Assembly (NCBI RefSeq): GCF_024585165.1
Contig: NZ_CP029008.1
Span: 5,847,501-5,911,500, forward strand
Direction of reading: 5' to 3'
Length of the DNA: 64,000 nucleotides
Source: Bradyrhizobium sp. WBOS07
GTDB taxonomy: Bacteria; Pseudomonadota; Alphaproteobacteria; Rhizobiales; Xanthobacteraceae
The translations under genes were made by a program, and so were the position numbers. Positions 21,622-42,951 of the stretch are shown piece by piece. Positions within the stretch are counted from its first letter, which is position 1. Every line of letters starts with the position of its first letter. The notes beneath the pieces were generated by a model. It was not told where the DNA came from. It worked only from the letters and a program-made list of their open reading frames with translations, and ran no database searches.

Positions 21622-21742
21622 CTGGCCTCCCTCGCGTTCAGCAATGCCTGTGCCGGCATTTCGCGCTGATCATTCCCGACATCGTAACCCGGTCCTGCAA
21701 CAGATCCCAGGCGGAGCAAGGATGTGGCCTGAGCCCTCCCTG

Positions 21743-30330: not shown

Positions 30331-32067
30331 TCAGCGCGCGTGCAGCAGCGCCAGCAGCACGACGACGGTGCAGGCGAGCGCCGCCGTGGTCAGCTTCCAG
30401 AACATCAGGGGGCTGCGCTCCAACAGCGGCGTGATGCGGGTGTCGAGATAGGCCGGGTTGGGGGTGCGAAGCTCGAAGACGAATTCCGAGATATCCTCGT
30501 GCCGCTTGTAGGGATCGGGATGGAGCGCGCGCCGGAGCGCGCCATCAATCCATGCGGGTACATTGCGGTCATCGTCGGCCGGGCGGTATTTGAGCTTTCG
30601 CACGTCCGCCTTGCGGCGGATCCTTGCGACCTGGGTGCCGTAAGGCAGCTTTCCCGTCAGCATCTGGTAGCAGAGCACGGCCAGCGAAAACATGTCGGAG
30701 CGTGGTGATCCTCCCTGCCCAAGGAAATACTCCGGCGCCGTGTACTGGACCGTGCCCAGGATTTCGTCGGCCTCGTCAGGGGGCGCGGCCTCGGCGACGC
30801 CGGCGACCCTGACCGATCCGAAGTCGATGATCTTTGCGGTGCCGGTCTTGTCGATCAGGATGTTGTCGGGCCTGAGGTCCTGATGCAGCATCTCCATGCG
30901 ATGGAAGGCGCGCAGGCCCGCGGCGATCTGCTCGATGATGCCGCGCACGGTTTCGAGATCGGGCCGCGGATTGTCGGTCATCCACTGCTTCAATGTCTGC
31001 CCCTCGACGAACTCCGTGGCGACGTAGAGATAGCCGCGCCGCCGCGACTGCGACAGCGGCTTGAGCACATGCGGGCTGTCGATGCGGCGCGCGATCCACT
31101 CCTCCATCAGGAAGCGCTTGAGATAGGCGGCGTTGTCGCGCAGGTCGATCGACGGCAGCTTGAGCGCAACCGGCTGCTCGGTCTCGGTGTCGACGGCGAG
31201 ATAGATATGGCTGCGGCTGCTGCCGTGGATCTCGCGGACGATCCGGTAGCCGTCGAAGATCGCGCGCGGCTCCGGTAGCGAAGGCAGCGGCAATTCCGAG
31301 CTCTGATTGAAGATGCCGGCCGGCTCGCGCTGCGACACCGCATCGATGCGCAGGATCTGGACGGTGATGTTGTCGTCGCTGCCGCGCCGGTAGGCTTCCT
31401 CAACGATGGCCTTCGCGGCCCCGTCGAGCTCGGCTGCATGCTCGTTCAGCACGCTGGTGATGAAACGCGCGTCGACGAATTCGTAAGCGCCGTCGGTTGC
31501 CAGCAGAAAGATGTCGCCGGCCTCGACCTCGAACGCCTGATAGTCGATCTCGAGCTGCGGATTGATGCCGAGCGCGCGGCCAAGATAGGTCTGCTCGGAC
31601 GACACGATGATGCGGTGATCGTCGGTCAGCTGCTCGAGCGTCTTGCCGGCGAGGCGGTAGACGCGGCAGTCGCCGACATGGAAGATGTGCGCGGTGGTCG
31701 CCTTGATGACCATGGCGCTGAGGGTGCAGACATATCCCTTGTCGCGGTCATAGGCGTATTGGCTCTTGCGCGTCTGCGCGTGCAGCCAGGAATTGGTCGC
31801 GTCCAGCACGCGGCGGGCGGAGGTCTTCACCGTCCAGGATTCCGACGTGCAGTAATAGTCCATCAGGAAGCTCTTGACCGCCGACTCGCTGGCGATCTGG
31901 CTCACCGCGCTGGAGGAGATGCCGTCGGCGAGAACCGCCGCGATGCCCTTCAGGCTGAGCAGCGGCTCTTCCGGAATCAGGACGCCGTGGAAATCCTGGT
32001 TGACGGGCTTGCGGCCCTTGTCGGAGTGCTGGCCGACCGAAATCCGGAGTCCGCGGGTCATCGTCAT
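30331..32067 (-). CDS. Bifunctional PP2C phosphatase / Ser-Thr protein kinase, membrane anchored
   Basis: 578 aa fusion. Residues about 8-245 are a PP2C phosphatase with the metal-binding Asp motifs NQD, LADG, GDCR, ATDG and DDN. Residues about 272-545 are a Hanks-type kinase: the invariant Lys is K303 in PVALKLP, the catalytic loop is HQDLRPDN (D397), D415 begins DFG, and APEYF follows. In the catalytic loop the usual HRD is HQD. A single transmembrane helix (about 552-574) ends the protein. It lies 60 bp downstream of the nitrite channel gene on the same strand, so the two probably share an RpoN/NtrC promoter. Its targets are unknown; nitrate or nitrite transporters are obvious candidates. 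GTG at 32070 is an alternative start. Confidence 0.92.
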   Translation of the reverse strand: MTMTRGLRISVGQHSDKGRKPVNQDFHGVLIPEEPLLSLKGIAAVLADGISSSAVSQIASESAVKSFLMDYYCTSESWTVKTSARRVLDATNSWLHAQTRKSQYAYDRDKGYVCTLSAMVIKATTAHIFHVGDCRVYRLAGKTLEQLTDDHRIIVSSEQTYLGRALGINPQLEIDYQAFEVEAGDIFLLATDGAYEFVDARFITSVLNEHAAELDGAAKAIVEEAYRRGSDDNITVQILRIDAVSQREPAGIFNQSSELPLPSLPEPRAIFDGYRIVREIHGSSRSHIYLAVDTETEQPVALKLPSIDLRDNAAYLKRFLMEEWIARRIDSPHVLKPLSQSRRRGYLYVATEFVEGQTLKQWMTDNPRPDLETVRGIIEQIAAGLRAFHRMEMLHQDLRPDNILIDKTGTAKIIDFGSVRVAGVAEAAPPDEADEILGTVQYTAPEYFLGQGGSPRSDMFSLAVLCYQMLTGKLPYGTQVARIRRKADVRKLKYRPADDDRNVPAWIDGALRRALHPDPYKRHEDISEFVFELRTPNPAYLDTRITPLLERSPLMFWKLTTAALACTVVVLLALLHAR

Positions 32068-32127
32068 CACCGGGGGAGGGGAACCTCACCCTGCTCGGGC
32101 GCGGCTCCCCTGTCGAGACGGATTCGA

Positions 32128-32967
32128 TCAGGCGGCAACGCGGGGCTTCGCCGCCTTGTCGACCTGACGCTTCGGCAGGGTCATGACGTGCGTGGCATAG
32201 AGGGTCATGCCGGTGAAGGCGAGGCCGCCGACGAGGTTGCCGAGCACGGTCGGGATCTCGTTCCAGATCAGATAATCCATGATCGAGAACTTGGCGCCGA
32301 GCAGCAGCCCGGACGGGAACAGGAACATGTTCACGACGGAATGCTCGAACACCATGTAGAAGAACACCAGGATCGGCATCCACATCGCGATGACCTTGCC
32401 GGGCACCGAGGTCGAGATCATGGCGCCGACGACGCCGGTCGAGACCATCCAGTTGCAGAGCATGCCGCGCAGGAACAGCGTCGCCATGCCCGCCGCGCCG
32501 TGCGCGGCATAGCCGAGCGTCCGGCCCTCGCCGATGTTGCCGATGGCCGCACCGACCTTGTCGGGCGCTTGGGTGAACCCGAACGTCGTGACGAAGGCCA
32601 TCATGAAGGCCACGGTGAACGCGCCGGCGAAGTTGCCGACGAAGACCAGACCCCAATTGCGCAGCACGCCATTGAGCGTGACACCGGGACGCTTGTCGAT
32701 CAGGGCGAGGGGCGAGAGCACGAACACGCCGGTGAGGAGATCGAAGCCCAGCAGGTAGAGCATGACGAAGCCGACCGGAAACAGCAGCGCGCCGACCAGC
32801 GGCTGGCCGGTGTTGACGGTGATCGTGACGGCGAACCATGCCGCCAATGCCAGGATGGCGCCGGCCATATAGGCGCGGATGATGGTATCCCGGGTGGACA
32901 TGAAGATCTTGGACTCGCCGGCATCCACCATCTTGGTGACGAATTCCGAAGGCGCGAGATACGACAT
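32128..32967 (-). CDS. Formate/nitrite transporter family channel (FocA/NirC)
   Basis: 279 aa, six transmembrane segments. Conserved family segments include VFVGNFAGAFTVAFMM, RGMLCNWMVSTGVV, and FYMVFEHSVVNMFLFP with the central-pore His. In this context, next to nitrate uptake and reduction genes, it most likely moves nitrite. The ATG at 32967 follows AAAGGA. It is divergent from nrtA across 676 bp and probably transcribed from the minus-strand RpoN-like promoter at 33205-33220, giving a leader of about 230 nt. Confidence 0.92.
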   Translation of the reverse strand: MSYLAPSEFVTKMVDAGESKIFMSTRDTIIRAYMAGAILALAAWFAVTITVNTGQPLVGALLFPVGFVMLYLLGFDLLTGVFVLSPLALIDKRPGVTLNGVLRNWGLVFVGNFAGAFTVAFMMAFVTTFGFTQAPDKVGAAIGNIGEGRTLGYAAHGAAGMATLFLRGMLCNWMVSTGVVGAMISTSVPGKVIAMWMPILVFFYMVFEHSVVNMFLFPSGLLLGAKFSIMDYLIWNEIPTVLGNLVGGLAFTGMTLYATHVMTLPKRQVDKAAKPRVAA

Positions 32968-33143: not shown

Positions 33144-33193
33144 TGCAGCCGCCAGAGGCTGCAACAATGCGGCAAGCCGCAGTCTTCGTTGAC
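33144..33193 (-). promoter_or_regulatory. Cluster of three hairpins at the 5' end of the predicted FocA/NirC leader
   Basis: Read on the minus strand from 33193: GTC-AACGAA-GAC (33182-33193), TGCGG-CTTG-CCGCA (33168-33181), and TGCAGCC-TCTGGC-GGCTGCA (33144-33163, 7 bp). The first and third have six-base loops. The first loop has A at position 1 and G at 4, as ANTAR proteins require, but its stem is only 3 bp. The set starts where the RpoN-type promoter would begin transcription. Confidence 0.4.
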
Positions 33194-33204
33194 GCCTAGG
33201 GAGA

Positions 33205-33220
33205 TGCAAGTTGTGTGCCG
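33205..33220 (-). promoter_or_regulatory. Sigma-54-type promoter for the FocA/NirC - kinase operon
   Basis: On the minus strand the sequence is CGGCAC-ACAAC-TTGCA, with GG and GC exactly 10 bases apart as the RpoN consensus TGGCAC-N5-TTGCA demands. Only the first base differs. It is 238 bp upstream of the start codon. The centre of the NtrC-like tandem sites lies 111 bp upstream. Confidence 0.72.
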
Positions 33221-33314
33221 TCTGGGCGCGCTGGAAAGACGTAGCAATATCAGGACGATGTGTCGTTGCGGCCGTGAGCCTTGGCGCTACCCTTGGCCTC
33301 TTGCATAAACTTCT

Positions 33315-33347
33315 GCACAAGGTTTGTGCGTCGCACAAGAATCAAGC
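33315..33347. promoter_or_regulatory. Tandem NtrC-like sites shared by divergent nitrate promoters
   Basis: GCAC-AAGGTTT-GTGC (33315-33329) is a full match to the NtrC pattern GCAC-N7-GTGC. After a 3-bp spacer comes a second, weaker site, GCAC-AAGAATC-AAGC (33333-33347). The centre, 33331, is 111 bp from the first base of the -24 element on each side. Tandem NtrC dimer sites at this distance are typical enhancers. Confidence 0.78.
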
Positions 33348-33441
33348 AGTCCGCAAATTTCACAAGCGGAACCGGCCTGCGGCAGGCTGGCGCAGGATGA
33401 ACAACATACTGATTTTTCGATACTTTTCGTAATGTCGGCCT

Positions 33442-33457
33442 TGGCACGAAGCTTGAA
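33442..33457 (+). promoter_or_regulatory. Sigma-54-type promoter for nrtABC
   Basis: TGGCAC-GAAGC-TTGAA. The -24 half is perfect; the -12 half has TTGAA where the consensus has TTGCA. The same variant is found before narK, and both lie 111 bp from a tandem NtrC-like site. Confidence 0.7.
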
Positions 33458-33554
33458 TGGTTCCAGCCGACGCCATTGAAGCCGTCCCGCGAGACTTCTC
33501 ATCCGATTTGCCGACGCCACCAAGGCGGGGGTCTCCCCCGTCGCGCGTTCGCAT

Positions 33555-33643: not shown

Positions 33644-34963
33644 ATGACCAAGCGCACCCGCCGGCCCGCGAATACGGGCCTCAGCCGCCGTCAATTGTTG
33701 AAAGCCACCGGCTCAACCGCCGCACTTCTCGCCGCAGCAAAGCTGAACTTCCCCGCCGGTGCCTTCGCGCAGGACGCAGGCCCCGAGGTCAAGGGCGCCA
33801 AGCTCGGCTTCATCGCACTCTCCGATGCCGGACCGCTCTTCGTCGCCAAGGACAAGGGCCTGTTCGCCAAGTACGGCATGCCCGACACCGACGTGCAGAA
33901 GCAGGCCTCATGGGGCACCACGCGCGACAATCTCGTGCTGGGCTCCGAAGGCAACGGCATCGACGGCGCGCATATCCTCACGCCGATGCCGTACCTGATC
34001 TCGGCCGGCAAGGTGACGCAGAACAACCAGCCGACGCCGATGTACATTCTTGCGCGGCTCAATCTCGACAGCCAGTGCATCTCGGTCGCCAATGAATATG
34101 CCGACCTCAAGCTCGGCGTCGACGCCTCGCCCTTCAAGGCGGCGCTGGAGAAGAAGAAGGCCTCCGGCAAGGCGGTGAAAGCCGCGATGACCTTCCCCGG
34201 CGGCACGCACGATCTCTGGATCCGCTACTGGCTCGCAGCCGGCGGCATCGATCCCGACAAGGACATCGAGACCATCGTGGTGCCGCCGCCGCAAATGGTG
34301 GCCAACATGAAGGTCGGCACCATGGATTGCTTCTGCGTCGGCGAGCCGTGGAACCTGCAGCTGATCCATCAGAAGATCGGCTACACCGCGGTCAACACCG
34401 GCGAGCTCTGGAACAAGCATCCGGAAAAATCCTTCGGCATGCGCGCCGCCTTCGTCGACAAGTACCCCAAGGCCGCCAAGGCGCTGCTGATGGCGGTGAT
34501 GGAAGCCCAGCAATGGGCTGACAAGGCCGAGAACAAGGCGGAGCTTGCCGCCATCATGGGCAAGCGGCAGTGGATGAACTGCCCGGTCGAGGACGTGCTC
34601 GACCGCAGTGCGGGCAAGTTCGACTACGGCATCCCCGGCAAGGTGGTCGAGAACTCACCGCACATCATGAAGTACTGGCGTGATCATGCCTCCTATCCCT
34701 TCCAGAGCCACGATCTCTGGTTCCTCACCGAGGACATCCGCTGGGGCAAGTACGAGGCTGGCTTCGACACCAAGGCGCTGATCGCCAAGGTCAATCGCGA
34801 GGACATGTGGCGCGATGCGGCCAAGGCGCTCGGCGTCGCGACCTCCGACATTCCGGCTTCGACCTCGCGCGGCAAGGAGACCTTCTTCGACGGCAAGGTG
34901 TTCGATCCGGAAAATCCGGCTGCCTATCTGAAGTCGCTCGCGATCAAGCGCGTCGAAGTCTGA
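33644..34963 (+). CDS. nrtA: Nitrate ABC transporter substrate-binding protein
   Basis: 439 aa. The N terminus has a twin-arginine signal (LSRRQLLKATGSTAALLAAAKL, cleavage near FAQ-DA), as in other NrtA proteins. The mature part contains KLGFIALSDAGPLFVAKDKGLFAKYGM, FPGGTHDLWIRYWLAAGGIDPDKDI and FCVGEPWN, the nitrate/bicarbonate-receptor pattern. I chose the ATG at 33644 with AAGGA upstream; an ATG at 33623 lacks a ribosome site. First gene of nrtABC, a B. diazoefficiens locus known for high-affinity nitrate uptake. Confidence 0.93.
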   Translation: MTKRTRRPANTGLSRRQLLKATGSTAALLAAAKLNFPAGAFAQDAGPEVKGAKLGFIALSDAGPLFVAKDKGLFAKYGMPDTDVQKQASWGTTRDNLVLGSEGNGIDGAHILTPMPYLISAGKVTQNNQPTPMYILARLNLDSQCISVANEYADLKLGVDASPFKAALEKKKASGKAVKAAMTFPGGTHDLWIRYWLAAGGIDPDKDIETIVVPPPQMVANMKVGTMDCFCVGEPWNLQLIHQKIGYTAVNTGELWNKHPEKSFGMRAAFVDKYPKAAKALLMAVMEAQQWADKAENKAELAAIMGKRQWMNCPVEDVLDRSAGKFDYGIPGKVVENSPHIMKYWRDHASYPFQSHDLWFLTEDIRWGKYEAGFDTKALIAKVNREDMWRDAAKALGVATSDIPASTSRGKETFFDGKVFDPENPAAYLKSLAIKRVEV

Positions 34964-35026: not shown

Positions 35027-35923
35027 ATGAACATGCCTGCTACGAAGATCGAGCTTGAGACCGCGACGCCTGCGGCAGCCGCTGCACCGGTCGTCGCGAT
35101 GACGCCGAAGCGGCCGCCGCGCACTGAAGCCTACGCGCGGATGGCACGGGAGACCGCCGTGCGCGTGATCCCGCCGCTGGTCGTGATTGCGCTGCTGACG
35201 CTGGTCTGGGAGCTGATCTGCCGCCGCGCCGGCTCGGCGCTGCCGCCGCCGTCGAGAGTGTTCAAGGACACAAAGGAGCTGATCCTCGATCCGTTCTTCG
35301 ACCATGGCGGCATCGACAAGGGCCTGTTCTGGCATCTGTCCGCCAGCCTCCAGCGCGTCGCCTTCGGCTATTCGCTCTCGGCCATCGCCGGCATCGCGCT
35401 CGGCGTGCTGGTCGGCCAGTCGGTCTGGGCGATGCGCGGGCTGGATCCGCTGTTTCAGGTGCTGCGCACGATTCCGCCGCTGGCCTGGCTGCCGCTGTCG
35501 CTCGCCGCGTTCCGCGACGGTCAGCCCTCGGCGATTTTCGTCATCTTCATCACCTCGATCTGGCCGATCATCATCAACACGGCGGTCGGCATCCGCAACA
35601 TCCCGCAGGACTATCGCAACGTCGCGGCGGTGGTGCAGCTCAATCCGCTCGAATTCTTCTCCAAGATCATGATCCCGGCGGCGGCGCCTTACATCTTCAC
35701 CGGCCTGCGCATCGGCATCGGCCTGTCGTGGCTTGCGATCGTGGCGGCGGAGATGCTGATCGGCGGCGTCGGCATCGGCTTCTTCATCTGGGACGCCTGG
35801 AACTCCTCGCACATCAGCGAGATCATCCTGGCACTGTTCTATGTCGGCATCATCGGCTTCGTGCTGGACCGCCTGATCGCGGGTCTCGGCAAGGTCGTCA
35901 CCCGCGGCACCGCGCAGAACTGA
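35027..35923 (+). CDS. nrtB: Nitrate ABC transporter permease
   Basis: 298 aa. A long hydrophilic N terminus (about 45 residues, Ala/Pro/Thr-rich) precedes about six transmembrane segments. The EAA-like loop is in NVAAVVQLNPLEFFSKIMIPAAAPYIFTGLRIGIGLSWLAIVAAEM. The context between nrtA and the ATPase gene identifies it. The ATG at 35027 follows GGAGAGAGATAGCG. Confidence 0.93.
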   Translation: MNMPATKIELETATPAAAAAPVVAMTPKRPPRTEAYARMARETAVRVIPPLVVIALLTLVWELICRRAGSALPPPSRVFKDTKELILDPFFDHGGIDKGLFWHLSASLQRVAFGYSLSAIAGIALGVLVGQSVWAMRGLDPLFQVLRTIPPLAWLPLSLAAFRDGQPSAIFVIFITSIWPIIINTAVGIRNIPQDYRNVAAVVQLNPLEFFSKIMIPAAAPYIFTGLRIGIGLSWLAIVAAEMLIGGVGIGFFIWDAWNSSHISEIILALFYVGIIGFVLDRLIAGLGKVVTRGTAQN

Positions 35924-35935
35924 GAGGAGGGGCAC

Positions 35936-36730
35936 ATGACCGCCTATCTGAAGCTCGACCACATCGACAAGGTCTTTACCCGCGGCGCCGCCACCACGGA
36001 GGTCTTGAAGGACATCAACCTCACGATCGAGAAGGGCGAATACGTCTCGATCATCGGCCATTCCGGCTGCGGCAAGTCGACCCTGCTCAACATCATCGCA
36101 GGGCTGACCGGCGCCACCACGGGTGGCGTGCTGCTGGAGAATCGCGAGGTCAACTCGCCCGGGCCCGACCGCGCCGTGGTGTTCCAGAACCACAGCCTGT
36201 TGCCGTGGCTCACCGTCTACGAGAACGTCAGGCTCGGCGTCGACAAGGTCTTCGCCAGGACCAAGTCCCGCGCCGAGCGCGACGCATGGGTGATGCACAA
36301 TCTCAACCTGGTGCAGATGGCCCACGCCCGCGACAAGCGCCCGTCCGAGATCTCCGGCGGCATGAAGCAGCGCGTCGGCATCGCCCGGGCACTGGCGATG
36401 GAGCCGAAAGTGCTGCTGCTGGATGAGCCGTTCGGCGCGCTCGATGCGCTGACCCGCGCGCATCTGCAGGACTCCGTGATGGCGCTGCATCAGAAGCTCG
36501 GCAACACCATCCTGATGATCACGCACGACGTCGACGAGGCCGTGCTTCTGTCCGACCGCATCGTGATGATGACGAACGGGCCGAGCGCGCGCATCGGTGA
36601 GGTGCTGGACGTGCCGCTAGCGCGACCTCGCAAGCGGCTCGAGCTGGCCACCAACGCGACCTATTTGAAGTGCCGCCAGCGCGTGCTCGAATTCCTCTAC
36701 GAGCGTCATCGCTTCGTCGAGGCCGCGTAA
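35936..36730 (+). CDS. nrtC: Nitrate ABC transporter ATP-binding protein
   Basis: 264 aa ATPase. Walker A is GHSGCGKST, the Q-loop VVFQNHSLLPW, the signature ISGGMKQR, Walker B VLLLDEPFGALD and the H-loop MITHDVDEA. Unlike cyanobacterial NrtC it has no C-terminal receptor-like domain, so it resembles NrtD in structure; the rhizobial locus still calls it NrtC. It starts 12 bp after nrtB. Confidence 0.93.
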   Translation: MTAYLKLDHIDKVFTRGAATTEVLKDINLTIEKGEYVSIIGHSGCGKSTLLNIIAGLTGATTGGVLLENREVNSPGPDRAVVFQNHSLLPWLTVYENVRLGVDKVFARTKSRAERDAWVMHNLNLVQMAHARDKRPSEISGGMKQRVGIARALAMEPKVLLLDEPFGALDALTRAHLQDSVMALHQKLGNTILMITHDVDEAVLLSDRIVMMTNGPSARIGEVLDVPLARPRKRLELATNATYLKCRQRVLEFLYERHRFVEAA

Positions 36731-36771
36731 ACCAGTTACCGCGAGCGGCGCGCCCAATTAATCGACATCAA

Positions 36772-36804
36772 GCTCAATCCTTGTGCGCCGCACAGGGATT
36801 GAGC
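36772..36804. promoter_or_regulatory. Tandem NtrC-like sites upstream of narK (33-bp palindrome)
   Basis: GCTC-AATCCTT-GTGC (36772-36786), spacer GCC, GCAC-AGGGATT-GAGC (36790-36804). Each half differs from GCAC-N7-GTGC at one base, and together they form an almost perfect palindrome. The centre, 36788, is 111 bp from the narK -24 element at 36899. The same DNA could also end the nrtABC transcript, since it follows the nrtC stop by 41 bp. Confidence 0.7.
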
Positions 36805-36898
36805 GAATCGCAAATTTACCGTGCGAACAAGCCCTGCGAAAAATTCGGGCATCGCGAATAACGTTCTGAAATCCCTGTCTTTCCCGCGTGCGCGCAAC

Positions 36899-36914
36899 TG
36901 GCACGGAAATTGAA
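36899..36914 (+). promoter_or_regulatory. Sigma-54-type promoter for narK-bjgb-flp-nasC
   Basis: TGGCAC-GGAAA-TTGAA, with a perfect -24 element and the same TTGAA variant of the -12 element as the nrtA promoter. The start codon of narK is 149 bp downstream, leaving a leader of about 138 nt. Confidence 0.7.
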
Positions 36915-36992
36915 ATGTATTTGCGCGACGCCAACGACGACGTCCCTCAACATCATCAATCAGCATCGTGAACTCGCCACCGGGGTGAAGCC

Positions 36993-37062: not shown

Positions 37063-38442
37063 ATGACGAAGAATCCAACCTGGATTTCAGATTGGCGCCC
37101 CGAAGACGAGGCGTTCTGGAATGCGACCGGCAAGACCATCGCGCGACGCAACCTGATCTGGTCGATCGTGGCCGAGCATATCGGCTTCTCGGTCTGGCTG
37201 ATCTGGAGCATCGTCACCACCAAGCTGCCGCAGGCCGGCTTCCACTACACCACCGACCAGCTGTTCCAGCTCGTCGCGGTGCCGGGCCTGATCGGCGCCT
37301 TCATGCGCTTTCCCTATACATTCGCAGTGACGACGTTCGGCGGCCGCAACTGGACCATCTTCAGTGCGGCGATCCTGTTCATTCCGACCTTGTCGCTTGC
37401 CTACTTCGTCAGCCAGCCCGACACGCCGTTCTGGCTGATGCTGCTGGTGGCCTCGACCGCGGGTCTGGGTGGCGGCAATTTCGCCTCCAGCATGACCAAC
37501 ATCTCCTTCTTCTTCCCCGACCGGATGAAGGGGTGGGCGCTCGGCCTGAATGCGGCCGGCGGCAATATCGGCGTCTCCAGCGTGCAGCTCCTGACACCGA
37601 TCCTGATGACGCTGGCCGTCTTCAACCTGTATCAGGCGACGCCCGTCGACGGCATATTCCTCCAGAATGCCGGCCTGATGTGGGTGCTGCCGATCGCCAT
37701 CGCAGTGCTCGGCGCGGTGTTCTTCATGAACAACCTCACCACCGCGAAATCGTCGGTGAAGAACCAGCTCGCGATCGTAAAACGCAAGCACACCTGGATC
37801 ATGGCGTACCTCTATATCGGCACGTTCGGCTCCTTCATCGGCTATTCCGCGGCATTTCCGCTGCTGATCAAGACGCAATTCCCGGCCATCTCGATCTCGA
37901 TCGCGTTTCTGGGGCCCCTGGTCGGCTCGCTGTCGCGTCCCTTCGGCGGTTGGCTCGCCGACAAGGTCGGGGGCTCCATCATCACCTTCTGGAACTTCAT
38001 CCTGATGGCGGCGGCCACCGTCGGCGTGCTCTACTTCGTCGGACAGAAGGATTTCATCGGCTTCCTGTCGATGTTCCTGATCCTGTTCGTGACGACGGGC
38101 ATCGGCAACGGCTCGACCTACCGCATGATCCCTTCGATCTTCCGCGAGCAGAACCTGTTCAAGGTGCGCGGCAAGGGCGACGCGGAGCGCGCGGCCGCCA
38201 TGAAGACGGCGAGCATCGAAAGCGGCGCGGCGGTCGGCTTCATCGGCGCGGTCGGTGCGGTCGGCGGCTACCTGATCCCCAGCGGCTTCGGCAAGTCGAT
38301 CGCCTTGACCGGCGGGCCGCAGCTCGCGCTCGCGATCTATCTGGCCTTCTACGCCTCCTGCCTCGCTCTGACCTGGTGGTTCTACCTGCGTCGCAGCCCG
38401 CAAAGCGAAGGCGCGCCAAGCCTCGCTGAGGCTCGCGTGTAG
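37063..38442 (+). CDS. narK: Nitrate/nitrite antiporter, MFS family (NarK/NasA type)
   Basis: 459 aa, twelve transmembrane segments. The nitrate-signature segments are visible: ASTAGLGGGNFASSMTNISFFFP (NS1) and GIGNGSTYRMIPSIF (NS2), and an Arg lies in FMRFPYTF as in E. coli NarK/NarU. B. diazoefficiens NarK acts in nitrite export and nitrate assimilation. It starts with ATG at 37063 after GGAAGGG. First gene of narK-bjgb-flp-nasC. Confidence 0.94.
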   Translation: MTKNPTWISDWRPEDEAFWNATGKTIARRNLIWSIVAEHIGFSVWLIWSIVTTKLPQAGFHYTTDQLFQLVAVPGLIGAFMRFPYTFAVTTFGGRNWTIFSAAILFIPTLSLAYFVSQPDTPFWLMLLVASTAGLGGGNFASSMTNISFFFPDRMKGWALGLNAAGGNIGVSSVQLLTPILMTLAVFNLYQATPVDGIFLQNAGLMWVLPIAIAVLGAVFFMNNLTTAKSSVKNQLAIVKRKHTWIMAYLYIGTFGSFIGYSAAFPLLIKTQFPAISISIAFLGPLVGSLSRPFGGWLADKVGGSIITFWNFILMAAATVGVLYFVGQKDFIGFLSMFLILFVTTGIGNGSTYRMIPSIFREQNLFKVRGKGDAERAAAMKTASIESGAAVGFIGAVGAVGGYLIPSGFGKSIALTGGPQLALAIYLAFYASCLALTWWFYLRRSPQSEGAPSLAEARV

Positions 38443-38460
38443 CACTTGGTACGAATCTCG

Positions 38461-38484
38461 CTTCTCCCCGTACGCGGGGAGAAG
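38461..38484. repeat. Intercistronic palindrome between narK and bjgb
   Basis: A 10-bp stem (CTTCTCCCCG/CGGGGAGAAG) with loop TACG lies 18 bp after the narK stop, inside the operon. It resembles short palindromic repeats I know from Bradyrhizobium intergenic DNA and may modulate the downstream genes. Confidence 0.6.
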
Positions 38485-38564
38485 TCCCTCTGATGACGTT
38501 TGATCCATGAACTTCTTCCGCAATGGCGCGGACGAAGGCAGACCGAAGCAGACAGGAGAATATC

Positions 38565-38993
38565 ATGACGCCAGAACAGATCACTCTCATTCAGCAGAGC
38601 TTCTCCAAGGTCGCTCCGATCTCGGAGCAGGCCGCGGTGCTGTTCTACGATCGTCTGTTCGAGGTGGCGCCGTCCGTGCGCGCGATGTTTCCCGAGGACA
38701 TGACCGAGCAGCGCAAGAAGCTGATGGGCATGCTCGCCGCCGTCGTCGGCGGCCTGTCGAATCTGGACTCGATTCTTCCCGCGGCCTCCGCGCTCGCCAA
38801 GCGCCACGTCGCCTACGGCGCGGCGCCCGAGCACTATCCGGTGGTCGGCGCGACGCTGCTGTGGACCCTGGAGAAGGGCCTTGGCGAAGCCTGGACGCCC
38901 GAGCTGGCAAAGGCCTGGACCGACGCCTACGGCGTGCTGTCCGGCTACATGATGTCCGAGGCCTACGGCGCACAGCCGCAGGCCGCCGAATAG
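38565..38993 (+). CDS. bjgb: Single-domain haemoglobin
   Basis: 142 aa globin. The proximal haem ligand is H81 in AKRHVAYG, and F42 (MFPED) is the conserved CD1 phenylalanine. It lacks the FAD/NAD reductase domain of flavohaemoglobins. In B. diazoefficiens the homologue Bjgb detoxifies nitric oxide made during nitrate assimilation. The ATG at 38565 follows AGGAGAA; an upstream frame is open but without a ribosome site. The flp flavoprotein begins 10 bp after its stop and may reduce it. Confidence 0.93.
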   Translation: MTPEQITLIQQSFSKVAPISEQAAVLFYDRLFEVAPSVRAMFPEDMTEQRKKLMGMLAAVVGGLSNLDSILPAASALAKRHVAYGAAPEHYPVVGATLLWTLEKGLGEAWTPELAKAWTDAYGVLSGYMMSEAYGAQPQAAE

Positions 38994-39003
38994 GAGATGT
39001 CTC

Positions 39004-40221
39004 GTGAGTGAACCGCTGGTCATCGTCGGTAACGGTATGGCGGCCGCGCGTCTGGTCGACGAGCTCGCCAAGACCGCGCTCGGCCGCTACGCGGTCGCCG
39101 TGATCGGCGAGGAGCCGCGGCTCGCTTACAATCGCGTGCTGCTCTCATCCGTGCTGGCCGGCGAGACCGGTTCGCACGAGATCGAGCTGCGGCCGGCGGA
39201 CTGGTGGCGCCATCGCGGCGTCACCGTGCGCTACGGCTATCGCGTCACCGAAATCGATGTCGGCCGCCGCGAGCTCAAGATCGAGGGCGAGGAGAGCATG
39301 GAATATTCCAAGCTCGTGCTCGCCACGGGATCGACGCCGCTGCGGCTCAATTTGCCGGGCGCCGACCTCGCCGGCGTGCACACCTTTCGCGACACCCGCG
39401 ACGTCGACCTCTTGCTGACGCTGGCCGCGGCCAGGAAGCGCGTCGTCGTCGTCGGCGGCGGCCTGCTCGGACTTGAAGCAGCCTACGGCCTCGCCAAGGC
39501 GGGGGCGCCGGTGACGCTGCTGCATCTGATGGACCGTTTGATGGAGCGCCAGCTCGACGGGCCGGCTGCCGATCTGCTCAAGACGCTGGTCGAGCGCAAG
39601 GGCATCCGCGTCCTGCTCAACGCCTCGACCGTCCGCATCCATGGCGATGGACATGTCGAGGCCGTCGAGCTTGCCGATGGCAGCCGTATCGAGGCCGACG
39701 CCGTGATCTTCGCTGCCGGTATCAGGCCGAACGTCGCGCTGGCGAAAGAGGCGGGCATAGCCGTCAATCGCGGCGTGGTCGTCAACGACGTCATGCAGAC
39801 GTCCTCGTCCGACATTTTCGCGCTCGGCGAGTGTGCCGAGCATCGCGGCACTTGCTACGGCCTGGTCGAGCCCGCCTACGAGCAGGCGCGGGTGCTGGCG
39901 CGGCACCTGGCCGGCCGGCCTGCCGCCTATCAGGGCAGCGTGGTCTCGACCAATCTGAAGGTGTCCGGCGTCAGCGTGTTCTCCGCCGGCGACTTCATGG
40001 GCGGGGAGGGCAGCGAGAGCCTGGTGCTGACCGACCGCAGGCGCGGCACCTACAAGAAGCTGGTGATCGCGGACGGCCGGCTCACCGGTGCGGTGCTGAT
40101 CGGCGATAACGCCGATGCGCTCTGGTATCTCGAGCTGATCCGCAATGGCGACAAGGTGGCGGCGATCCGCACCGACATGATGTTCGGCCGCGCGCCCGCG
40201 CGTCCTCCCAGGGCGGCGTGA
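39004..40221 (+). CDS. flp: FAD-dependent NAD(P)H oxidoreductase of the nitrate locus
   Basis: 405 aa. The N-terminal FAD motif is LVIVGNGMAAARLVDEL, the NAD(P)H motif is VVVVGGGLLGLEAAYGLA, and FALGECAEHRGTCYGLVEPAYEQ near the C-terminal half contacts FAD. It matches the flavoprotein half of NirB but lacks the sirohaem and Fe-S part. In B. diazoefficiens, Flp is proposed to pass electrons to NasC and perhaps Bjgb. Start is GTG at 39004. Confidence 0.92.
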   Translation: MSEPLVIVGNGMAAARLVDELAKTALGRYAVAVIGEEPRLAYNRVLLSSVLAGETGSHEIELRPADWWRHRGVTVRYGYRVTEIDVGRRELKIEGEESMEYSKLVLATGSTPLRLNLPGADLAGVHTFRDTRDVDLLLTLAAARKRVVVVGGGLLGLEAAYGLAKAGAPVTLLHLMDRLMERQLDGPAADLLKTLVERKGIRVLLNASTVRIHGDGHVEAVELADGSRIEADAVIFAAGIRPNVALAKEAGIAVNRGVVVNDVMQTSSSDIFALGECAEHRGTCYGLVEPAYEQARVLARHLAGRPAAYQGSVVSTNLKVSGVSVFSAGDFMGGEGSESLVLTDRRRGTYKKLVIADGRLTGAVLIGDNADALWYLELIRNGDKVAAIRTDMMFGRAPARPPRAA

Positions 40222-40248
40222 CCGGCCGGCTTGACAAGGCAGTTCGAC

Positions 40249-42951
40249 ATGACGGCAATCGATCCCTCGCTCCGCGCCACCAAGACGACCTGTCCCTATT
40301 GCGGCGTCGGTTGCGGCGTACTTGCGACGCCCGACGGCAAGGGTGGCGCGGCGATCGCGGGCGATCTTGATCATCCCGCCAATTTCGGCAGGCTCTGCTC
40401 CAAGGGCTCGGCGCTTGGCGAGACCGTCGGACTGGAAAACCGGCTGCTCTATCCGATGATCCGCTGCAAGGGCGTGCTGGAACGCGTCGCCTGGAGCGAT
40501 GCGCTCGATCACGTCGCCCATCGCATGCAGCACATCGCAGCCCGCGACGGCGCCGACGCGGTCGCGTTCTATCTCTCCGGCCAGCTCCTCACCGAGGACT
40601 ATTACGTCGCCAACAAGCTGATGAAGGGCTTTGTCGGCACGGCCAACGTCGACACGAATTCGCGGCTCTGCATGTCGTCCTCCGTCGCCGGTCATCGCCG
40701 CGCCTTCGGCGCCGACACCGTGCCCGGCTGCTACGAGGATCTCGACCAGGCCGATCTGCTCGTCTTCGTCGGCTCGAATGCGGCCTGGTGCCATCCGGTG
40801 CTGTTCCAGCGCATGCTGAAGAACCGGCACGAGCGGGGCGCACGGATGATCGTGATCGATCCGCGCCGCACCGATACCGCCGATGACGTCGACTTGTTTC
40901 TCGGCCTCAAGCCGGGCACCGACACGGCACTCTTCTCCGGGCTGTTCGTCGATCTCGTCGACAACGGCGCGTTGGACGCCGATTACGTCGCGAACCACAC
41001 GTCGGGCTTCGAGGACGCGCTGGCGCGTGCGCGGAGCATCGCCGGCAGCGTCCGCGCGACGGCGCTCGCCACGGGCCTGTCCGAGCAGGACGTCGCCACC
41101 TTCTTCAGGATGTTTCGCGAGACGCCGCGCGTGGTCACGCTCTATTCGCAAGGAGTCAACCAGTCGGCGCAGGGCACCGACAAGGTCAACGCGATCCTGA
41201 ACTGCCATCTGGCGACGGGGCGGATCGGCAAGCCGGGCGCCTCCCCGTTCTCGCTCACCGGCCAGCCCAATGCGATGGGCGGCCGCGAGGTCGGCGGCCT
41301 CGCCAACATGCTCGCCGCCCATATGGGCTTCACGCCGCCCGACATCGATCGTGTCAGGCGGTTCTGGAAGGCGCCGCGCATCGCCACCCATGAGGGGCTG
41401 AAGGCGGTGCAATTGTTCGAGGCCATCAACCGCGGGGAGGTCAAGGCGCTCTGGGTGATGGGCACCAACCCCGCGGTGTCGCTGCCGGATGCGGACTTCG
41501 TGCGCGAGGCGTTGAAGAAGCTCGAGCTGTTCGTGGTCTCCGAGAACGTGCTGTCCAACGACACCGTCGAGGCCGGTCCGCACGTGCTGCTGCCGGCGCT
41601 GGCCTGGGGCGAGAAGTCGGGCACGGTGACCAATTCCGAACGCCGCATCTCGCGCCAGCGCTCGTTCCTGCCGGCGCCGGGCGAGGCGCGCCCCGATTGG
41701 TGGATCCTGAGCGAGACCGCAAAGCGTCTCGGCTTCGGCGACAGTTTCAACTACAAATCGGCCGCCGAGATCTTCCGCGAGCACGCCGCGCTCTCGGCAT
41801 TCGAGAATGATGGCAGCCGCGATTTCGACATTGGCGCGCTGACCTCGCTGTCCGACGAGGGCTTCGACGCCCTGAAGCCGGTGCAATGGCCGGTGCGCGA
41901 CGGTGGCGCGCCCGGCGAGCGTTTCTTCGCGAGCGGCGGCTTCTTCACCAATGACGGCAGAGGCCGCTTCGTTGCCCCGGAGGTGCCGTTACTGCGCAGC
42001 GAGACCGGTCCCTCGCGCCCCCTCAGGCTCAACACCGGACGCATCCGCGATCAGTGGCACACCATGACGCGCACCGGCCTCAGTCAGCGGCTCGGCGCGC
42101 ATCTGCCCGAGCCGTTCGTCGAGATCCATCCCGATGACGCCAGGAAATACGGCATCGTTCACGACGGCTTTGCCCGCATCACCACCGACTACGGACAGTG
42201 CATCCTGAGGGTGGTCCTCAGCGAACGACAGCAGCGCGGCGCCTTGTTCGTGCCGATCCACTGGAGCGCGATGAATGCTTCGCACGGCCGCGTCGGGGCG
42301 CTGGTGCAGTCGTTCACCGATCCGTTCTCCGGACAGCCGGAATCGAAGGCGACGCCGGCCGCGATCGCGCCGTATGAATTCGTCTTCCGCGGCTTTGCGC
42401 TGTCGCGGCAGCAGCTCGACCTTCCATCAAACGTGTTGTGGACCCGCGTCACGGTCGCCGGTGGCTTCGGTTATCTGTTCGCCGACAACGCGGATCTGTC
42501 GCGCTGGCCGGCTTGGCTCGACGGGGTCGCCGGCGAGGACGTCGCCGAATATCGCGATTTTGGCGGCGGCATCTATCGGGCCGCCTCCTTTGCCGGAGAC
42601 CGCATCGAGGCCTGCCTGTTCGTCGGCCCCGGGCATGACGCCGGCGATTGGGAGGTGGTCAAGACTGCCTTTGCTGCCGATCACGTCAGCGACGAGCAGC
42701 GCCGTATGCTGCTCTCGGGCAAGTCGACGGAGGGGGCGGCCTCGACCGGGCCGATCGTCTGCGCCTGCTTCGGCGTCGGCCGCGGCACCATCTGCGACAC
42801 GATTGCCGCCGGCGCGCGCACGGCGGCCGAGATCGGTGCCGAGCTCAAGGCCGGCACCAATTGCGGCTCCTGCATCCCCGAGTTGAAGCGTCTGATTGCG
42901 GCGACGGATGTGCCGGTGAAAGAAGTCAAGCTCGCCGGCGCGGCGGGTTAG
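40249..42951 (+). CDS. nasC: Assimilatory nitrate reductase catalytic subunit
   Basis: 900 aa cytoplasmic molybdoenzyme. An N-terminal [4Fe-4S] site is formed by C15, C18, C22 and C50 (CPYCGVGC, RLCSKG). The bis-MGD domain has VNQSAQGTDKVNAI, GQPNAMGGREVGGLANMLAAH, MGTNPAVSLPD and, at the end, LNTGRIRDQWHTMTRTG. A BFD-like [2Fe-2S] domain follows at C838, C840, C872 and C875, which receives electrons from the flavoprotein. ATG at 40249 is preferred (AAGG upstream); a TTG at 40231 is also in frame. Last gene of the operon. No nitrite reductase gene is in the window. Confidence 0.95.
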   Translation: MTAIDPSLRATKTTCPYCGVGCGVLATPDGKGGAAIAGDLDHPANFGRLCSKGSALGETVGLENRLLYPMIRCKGVLERVAWSDALDHVAHRMQHIAARDGADAVAFYLSGQLLTEDYYVANKLMKGFVGTANVDTNSRLCMSSSVAGHRRAFGADTVPGCYEDLDQADLLVFVGSNAAWCHPVLFQRMLKNRHERGARMIVIDPRRTDTADDVDLFLGLKPGTDTALFSGLFVDLVDNGALDADYVANHTSGFEDALARARSIAGSVRATALATGLSEQDVATFFRMFRETPRVVTLYSQGVNQSAQGTDKVNAILNCHLATGRIGKPGASPFSLTGQPNAMGGREVGGLANMLAAHMGFTPPDIDRVRRFWKAPRIATHEGLKAVQLFEAINRGEVKALWVMGTNPAVSLPDADFVREALKKLELFVVSENVLSNDTVEAGPHVLLPALAWGEKSGTVTNSERRISRQRSFLPAPGEARPDWWILSETAKRLGFGDSFNYKSAAEIFREHAALSAFENDGSRDFDIGALTSLSDEGFDALKPVQWPVRDGGAPGERFFASGGFFTNDGRGRFVAPEVPLLRSETGPSRPLRLNTGRIRDQWHTMTRTGLSQRLGAHLPEPFVEIHPDDARKYGIVHDGFARITTDYGQCILRVVLSERQQRGALFVPIHWSAMNASHGRVGALVQSFTDPFSGQPESKATPAAIAPYEFVFRGFALSRQQLDLPSNVLWTRVTVAGGFGYLFADNADLSRWPAWLDGVAGEDVAEYRDFGGGIYRAASFAGDRIEACLFVGPGHDAGDWEVVKTAFAADHVSDEQRRMLLSGKSTEGAASTGPIVCACFGVGRGTICDTIAAGARTAAEIGAELKAGTNCGSCIPELKRLIAATDVPVKEVKLAGAAG

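Follow-up and report, generated by a model that had tools for sequence, protein, structure and literature searches.

The NtrC enhancer of E. coli glnAp2 consists of two dimer sites of the GCAC-N7-GTGC type, about 32 bp apart, which lie upstream of a single -24/-12 promoter, reach it by looping and tolerate large changes in distance. Bacterial enhancers are usually called forgiving about distance. Also in E. coli, one intergenic set of activator sites serves two divergent sigma-54 promoters at hyc/hyp (with FhlA) and at zraP/zraSR (with ZraR); we know of no report of equal, conserved distances at either locus. The locus described here belongs to a Bradyrhizobium genome of 6.73 Mb in one contig and lies in a stretch of 64,000 nucleotides (the window); its nearest NrtA relatives are also from Bradyrhizobium. 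It resembles glnAp2 in having two GCAC-N7-GTGC-type sites upstream of a -24/-12 promoter, but differs in that the sites are 18 bp apart within a dyad, two promoters are present and most loci of one group keep the distance to within about 1 bp. The divergent layout is that of hyc/hyp and zraP/zraSR, although the activators differ.

A site of the same TGCACAA-N3-TTGTGC type is found at rhizobial dusB-ntrBC in Bradyrhizobium. That site lies within a sigma-70-like promoter and is repressing in S. meliloti according to the accessible part of PMC10746234, whereas here it stands 111 bp upstream of sigma-54 boxes. The gene order is identical to that of nrtABC (blr2803-05) and narK-bjgb-flp-nasC (blr2806-09) in B. 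diazoefficiens USDA 110, which supports the gene names used here, although a shared enhancer or its spacing is not described in the accessible part of PMC4724949. An earlier description of the shared enhancer was not found in the literature searched, a scope outside which most subscription papers lie.

In our best explanation, to which we give roughly three chances in four, positions 33205-33457 would form a shared, dyad-symmetric sigma-54 enhancer, activated by NtrC, that switches on nrtABC and the operon of an FNT family channel and a phosphatase/kinase together. The motifs, the distances, the conservation of spacing, the rarity and the match to the ntrBC site are read from sequence; we infer NtrC occupancy, simultaneous activation, looping and a further NasT step. 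New here are two distances that stay constant to the base pair although the spacers have diverged, the return of the same distance at narK and the re-pairing of FNT with different partners.

The dyad and its sigma-54 boxes

The features of the locus are given by their position in the window.

30331..32070, minus strand: fused PP2C-type phosphatase/Ser-Thr protein kinase gene, next after the FNT gene (PP2C and kinase models below curated cut-offs)
32128..32967, minus strand: FNT family channel gene (best match TIGR00790, E=1e-37, below curated cut-off)
33182..33193, minus strand: hexaloop hairpin GTC-AACGAA-GAC at the start of the predicted FNT transcript, 3 firm pairs, candidate target of NasT
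33205..33220, minus strand: predicted sigma-54 -24/-12 promoter of the FNT-kinase operon, CGGCACACAACTTGCA, 9/11, predicted +1 near 33195
33314..33348: putative shared enhancer, dyad with two NtrC-type sites, TGCACAAGGTTTGTGCGTCGCACAAGAATCAAGCA, centre 33331
33442..33457, plus strand: predicted sigma-54 -24/-12 promoter of nrtABC, TGGCACGAAGCTTGAA, 10/11, predicted +1 near 33467
33469..33486, plus strand: hairpin GACGCC-ATTGAA-GCCGTC with A..G.. hexaloop at the start of the predicted nrtA transcript, candidate target of NasT (ANTAR)
33644..34963, plus strand: nrtA, nitrate-binding protein of an ABC transporter (named by its position before nrtB/nrtC; NCBIfam gives only one SsuA-like match, below cut-off)
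35027..36730, plus strand: nrtB (35027-35923) and nrtC (35936-36730), TIGR01183 and TIGR01184 above curated cut-offs
36771..36805: the element again, upstream of narK, as a 35-bp near-perfect palindrome AGCTCAATCCTTGTGCG-C-CGCACAGGGATTGAGCG, centre 36788
36899..36914, plus strand: predicted sigma-54 promoter of narK-bjgb-flp-nasC, TGGCACGGAAATTGAA, 10/11, predicted +1 near 36925
36927..36944, plus strand: hairpin of the same kind at the start of the predicted narK transcript
37063..42951, plus strand: narK (37063-38442), single-domain haemoglobin (38523-38993), flp (39004-40221) and nasC (40231-42951), NCBIfam matches below curated cut-offs

Site 1 of the enhancer (GCACAAGGTTTGTGC, 33315-33329) agrees with GCAC-N7-GTGC at 8/8 positions and site 2 (GCACAAGAATCAAGC, 33333-33347) at 6/8, with AAGC instead of GTGC. 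The half-sites are GCAC (33315-33318), GTGC (33326-33329), GCAC (33333-33336) and the degenerate AAGC (33344-33347), which together make up a dyad of about 35 bp. An inner palindrome, TTGTGCG-T-CGCACAA (33324-33338), shares the centre of the site pair at 33331, and the sites lie within the range, roughly 80-150 bp upstream of a -24/-12 element, by which an NtrC enhancer is recognized. The sequence-only reading had described this element as a tandem NtrC-like enhancer; two NtrC-type sites are indeed present, but it is better termed a dyad holding two sites than a simple tandem pair.

The sigma-54 core (GG-N10-GC in TGGCACG-N4-TTGC) was found on both sides in the boxes scoring 9/11 and 10/11, the -12 element having GC at FNT and GA at nrtA and narK (TTGA, not TTGC). 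The first base of each -24 element (33442 on the plus strand, 33220 on the minus strand) lies 111 bp from the centre at 33331, and the equidistance reported in the sequence-only reading is thereby confirmed, with every coordinate verified. Another sigma-54-like box, CGGCACAGGCATTGC, is present on the minus strand at 21641-21655 of the window. Closely after the nrtA enhancer, CGCAAATTT occurs at 33352-33360 and again after the narK enhancer at 36809-36817, a mirror copy being absent from the FNT side of the enhancer; it may be an additional binding or bending site.

The narK copy has no divergent partner in the window, yet its -24 element also lies 111 bp from its enhancer centre. Among named relatives with readable upstream sequence, the narK distance is 111 bp in 25 of 29 and 112 bp in 4 of 29, and GTGC-N3-GCAC is kept in 28 of 29. 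Since narK uses 111 bp without a divergent partner, the symmetry between nrtA and FNT need not imply a midpoint rule.

The weight of the evidence rests on the combination of motifs and not on single motifs. The sigma-54 pattern YGGCAYRNNNNTTGM has 4 matches in the window against 0.68 expected, a number reached by one of 100 shuffles, and three of the four are part of the nrtA/FNT/narK system. For GTGCNNNGCAC there are 3 matches against 2.2 expected and for GCACNNNNNNNGTGC 4 against 2.2; these NtrC-type motifs, GTGC-N3-GCAC and GCAC-N7-GTGC, are about as frequent in the window as in shuffles and are not rare when taken alone. A combined pattern (the dyad core with a sigma-54 box 98-128 bp from the dyad centre) occurs exactly three times in the 6.7 Mb genome, at FNT, nrtA and narK, with matches of identical length that place the -24 element 111 bp from the centre each time, and a reversed control pattern does not occur in the genome. 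Across the genus the combined pattern is present in 231 of 265 genomes, part of these matches being due to chance as judged by the look of the sequence, and the control appears once each in 6 of 265.

Elements of similar appearance were seen elsewhere. A sequence that begins with GTGC-N3-GCACAATGGATA recurs in three genomes (G009:C24:237157-237297, G050:C2:312057-312196 and G061:C93:64404-64543), and a sigma-54-like box stands some 121 bp away from its centre. In the genome of the window, two palindromes of the TTGTGC/GCACAA type lie 30 bp apart (L169:1471-1515; G000 C1:2775223-2775267) between genes read from their translations as phasin and D-Ala-D-Ala carboxypeptidase, and no sigma-54 box of at least 9/11 was found within 300 bp. 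This similar dyad may be used by another regulator.

Conservation of the two distances and the partners of FNT

NrtA loci were drawn from named genomes as the best 80 of 583 confirmed loci, 26 of which have FNT opposite, and in all 26 of these named loci the PP2C/kinase gene lies beside FNT. FNT was sampled across the genus in 265 genomes and matched in 242 of them. From these, 48 distinct divergent intergenic regions (the window's own included) were aligned, and 100 further stretches brought the set to 132 distinct FNT-upstream regions. Boxes were picked by their score within a range of 50-230 bp and not by distance.

In the 48 aligned regions, whose total lengths range from 662 to 693, both distances are 110-112 bp. 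The inner half-sites GTGC and GCAC are unchanged in all of them, as are TGGCA and TTGAA of the nrtA promoter and CGGCA and TTGC of the FNT promoter (48/48 each). The outer half-sites vary more: the left one is GCAC in 27 regions and GCAT in 17, and the right one keeps GC in all 48 but reads GTGC, which makes a perfect second GCAC-N7-GTGC site, in only 8. In the wider set, 118 of 132 FNT-upstream regions carry a dyad flanked on each side by a sigma-54 box scoring 9/11 or more and were counted as shared divergent enhancers, two have one box of only 8/11, and in 12 the dyad is absent.

Conservation of the spacing in relatives had been set beforehand as a test that could refute the sequence-only reading, and the distances passed it. 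Among 89 distinct loci with an nrtA orthologue opposite FNT and a recognizable dyad, both distances are 109-112 bp in 84; they do not differ at all in 52 loci, differ by no more than 1 bp in 78 and by no more than 2 bp in 84. Five loci depart from the 109-112 range (FNT/nrtA side): 134/112, 133/112, 134/113, 100/111 and 111/105. Over all 89 loci the standard deviation of the distance is 4.35 on the FNT side, owing to the three loci at 133-134 and the one at 100, and 0.75 on the nrtA side. The spacers were compared in the 85 loci with both distances at 105-114 bp, which excludes four of the five exceptions. Between enhancer and -24 element, the FNT-side spacers are 50% identical and the nrtA-side spacers 59%, their lengths having standard deviations of 0.57 and 0.73, while the leaders show identities of 83% and 88% with standard deviations of 4.97 and 1.81. 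A length that stays fixed despite low spacer identity points to selection on distance, and the spacing is probably under such selection; the loci are related, so that they do not count as independent trials.

A helical-phase rule was considered as well. The FNT side showed some periodicity (Rayleigh p below 0.005 to 0.03 for periods of 10.4-11.0, over distinct values and uncorrected for relatedness), and no clear periodicity was seen elsewhere (p 0.07 to 0.34). Such a rule is not claimed.

The equal distances are confined to part of the genus. Of the 54 named NrtA loci without FNT opposite (from the same best 80 of 583), 50 had enough upstream sequence; 33 have their best site pair at 110-115 bp, 8 at 125 and one at 137, and no convincing pair was found in 8, which include three labelled Rhodopseudomonas. 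Eight NrtA paralogues (35-44% identity) opposite FNT have distances of 106-176 on the FNT side and of 112-113, in one case 184, on the other side. In 23 further loci the partner was not recognized as NrtA; 17 of these show 139-144/135-136, and a NarK N-terminus could be read downstream in 16 of the 23. In some Bradyrhizobium, narK instead of nrtA is thus divergent to FNT across a common dyad, clearly so at L126 (763-1569), with 141/136 bp. Enhancers can thus be shared at unequal distances (e.g. 134/112, 141/136, 175/112), and the FNT side measures 123-176 in 30 of the 31 loci whose partner is other than an nrtA orthologue. In these arrangements, FNT is paired variously with nrtA, an NrtA paralogue or narK, in each pairing across a shared dyad. 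A contig labelled Streptomyces sp. AcH 505 (L080) encodes an NrtA 84% identical to that of the window with a TGGCACGGAGTTTGAA box upstream; it is probably an alphaproteobacterial contaminant of the Streptomyces record.

Leaders, published expression and the likely activator

Targets of ANTAR proteins follow the rule of A at position 1 and G at position 4 of a hexaloop. Each of 120 loci has a hairpin of this kind near both predicted starts, A1 and G4 having been imposed by the search, and the stems on the nrtA and FNT sides showed no covariation. Similar hairpins are found at nirA further down the leader, and NasT-type hairpins in the narK leader are also predicted in the accessible part of PMC6759348. 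The whole leaders have no unusual stability as RNA structures (z -0.35 for nrtA, -1.52 for FNT), and Rfam gave no match within the window. In local alignments, the likeness of the nrtA and narK leaders exceeds all 200 mononucleotide shuffles, and the FNT leader resembles neither of the two. Control of nrtA and FNT by NasT is put forward as a suggestion only.

In USDA 110, as far as the accessible part of PMC4724949 goes, nrtABC and narK are expressed from separate promoters and narK-lacZ needs NasT during aerobic growth on nitrate; during denitrifying growth, narK rises without NasT (PMC6759348, accessible part). By a term search, neither nrtA nor blr2803 is named in the main text of the paper on USDA 110 start sites (PMC4842269). 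For strain DOA9, the part of PMC13207237 that is accessible reports that expression of nrtA, nrtB and fnt falls in rpoN mutants under nitrogen-fixing conditions, and this published decrease of nrtA and fnt supports the RpoN function that the sequence-only reading had expected on both sides. The same part prints different sigma-54 sites, at -103 (nrtA) and -74 (fnt). At the DOA9 locus (L031; 4799, 4578), the printed sites begin 117 and 88 bp before the start codons used here, inside the predicted leaders, and the conserved boxes start 202 and 262 bp before these codons.

The genome encodes eight strong matches to sigma-54 activators among the 12 matches listed. One of them, at L309, is NtrC (TIGR01818, 747.5 bits, cut-off 558.6); its translation contains GAFTGA, and upstream of it lie open reading frames with translations that read as dusB and ntrB. 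An exact TGCACAA-N3-TTGTGC occurs twice in this genome, in the shared enhancer and in front of dusB-ntrBC, and five places elsewhere match with one mismatch. An NtrC-type motif is present at the ntrBC operon itself, where it takes up the whole 17-bp interval from TTGACT to AAGATA. Matches to the site came from 116 of 117 genomes, and in a sample of 50 loci (the 30 best and 20 distant ones, the window's own genome included) it holds the same position in all 50, with an exact GCAC-N7-GTGC in 39, GCCC in 10 and GCAT in one. In the accessible part of PMC10746234, gel shifts show binding of S. meliloti NtrC to PdusB, and NtrC autorepresses dusBntrBC; the accessible part of PMC10274813 reports ChIP peaks of Caulobacter NtrC, which is without GAFTGA, at the narK promoter and at nasT. 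These likenesses in sequence make NtrC the likely activator of the enhancer.

We also considered whether the same dyad is present at the classical targets of NtrC in this genome; this idea fails at glnK, the glutamine synthetase genes and nirA. The first glnK has a 10/11 sigma-54 box just upstream and no NtrC site of at least 7/8 within 300 bp, and three other boxes in the glnK region (8/11, 8/11 and 10/11) have only single 7/8 sites. No combination of dyad or site with a box was listed at glnB/glnA, and two other loci with a glutamine synthetase domain have boxes without the element. The nirA box has a different arrangement, with a 7/8 site at 82 bp. Besides these targets, several observations weigh against the preferred explanation: the 6/8 match of the second site, TTGA as the -12 of nrtA and narK, the dyad core at another locus that has no sigma-54 box, the five of 89 loci off the common distances, the 12 of 132 regions that lack a dyad, and the missing GAFTGA in the Caulobacter NtrC that serves as a parallel. 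According to a 2017 report, expression of narK and nirA in B. diazoefficiens reportedly requires NtrC and RpoN.

Several other readings of the element can be weighed against a shared NtrC enhancer. The shared sigma-54 enhancer might be bound by another activator of this class, such as NtrX or the NtrC-like regulator at L311. With eight strong sigma-54 activators encoded, weak outer half-sites and no such element at glnK and the glutamine synthetase genes, this has something in its favour, but we consider it unlikely in view of the near-identical 16-mer before dusB-ntrBC, the GCAC core typical of NtrC sites and the Caulobacter NtrC peaks at narK (PMC10274813, accessible part). Much less probable is a dyad that works as the operator of a repressor or of an activator independent of sigma-54: in all three cases in the window the dyad stands 111 bp upstream of a sigma-54 box, which is far for a classical operator, even if a similar dyad at another locus has no sigma-54 box and the dusB-ntrBC site lies inside a sigma-70-like spacer. 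An element that serves nrtA alone, with the minus-strand box and its spacing being incidental, would fit the lower score of that box here (9/11, first base C). Its core is, however, invariant in the 48 aligned regions, fnt is rpoN-dependent in DOA9 (PMC13207237, accessible part), and FNT retains a dyad with a sigma-54 box of 9-11/11 next to it where narK or an NrtA paralogue stands opposite, so that we give this reading very little credence.

Under the preferred reading of a shared NtrC enhancer, two active NtrC dimers would occupy the two sites around the common centre when nitrogen is short. The NtrC oligomer would then contact sigma-54 polymerase at either promoter, 111 bp away in each case, by looping in either direction, and nitrate import through nrtABC and the FNT channel/kinase operon would come on together. 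Downstream, NasT may add nitrate-dependent antitermination through the conserved 5' hairpins. The earlier claim of one NtrC enhancer for both sides is upheld for a conserved NtrC-type element between two conserved boxes, while binding by NtrC itself is something we infer.

What the equal distances may mean

The sequence-only reading had taken the exact symmetry as a sign of sharing. The symmetry is real, but it is not evidence of sharing as such, as narK and 25 of its 29 relatives also stand at 111 bp, and it is confined to part of the genus. It rather looks as if each promoter has one preferred distance than as if a midpoint rule applied. We somewhat favour the view, compatible with a shared NtrC enhancer, that about 111 bp is a preferred distance to which each promoter is adjusted independently and that the position of the enhancer does not fix the ratio of the two operons. 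The same 111 bp at narK, the 33 of 50 nrtA loci without FNT opposite at 110-115 bp and the loci that share an enhancer at unequal distances all agree with independent tuning. What it leaves unexplained is the FNT side, which measures 109-112 bp in the 84 loci and 123-176 bp in 30 of 31 loci with other partners. Alternatively, the equidistance could be a device by which a dyad-symmetric NtrC assembly offers the same geometry to two competing promoters and so sets how much nitrate import there is relative to nitrite transport and kinase signalling. Selection would then hold both loops near 111 bp, other spacings would stand for other ratios, and FNT would have been re-paired with the shared enhancer kept. 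On the whole, we regard this device as a doubtful proposal.

Whichever applies, the enhancer-promoter distance has been kept to about 1 bp on both sides across dozens of genomes in which the intervening DNA has lost 40-50% of its identity, and the importance of loop length in vivo thereby becomes directly testable in Bradyrhizobium. The locus further provides concrete predicted promoter positions for nrtA and fnt, unlike those printed for DOA9, and would bring an unstudied phosphatase/kinase, together with a channel of the nitrite type, under nitrogen control.
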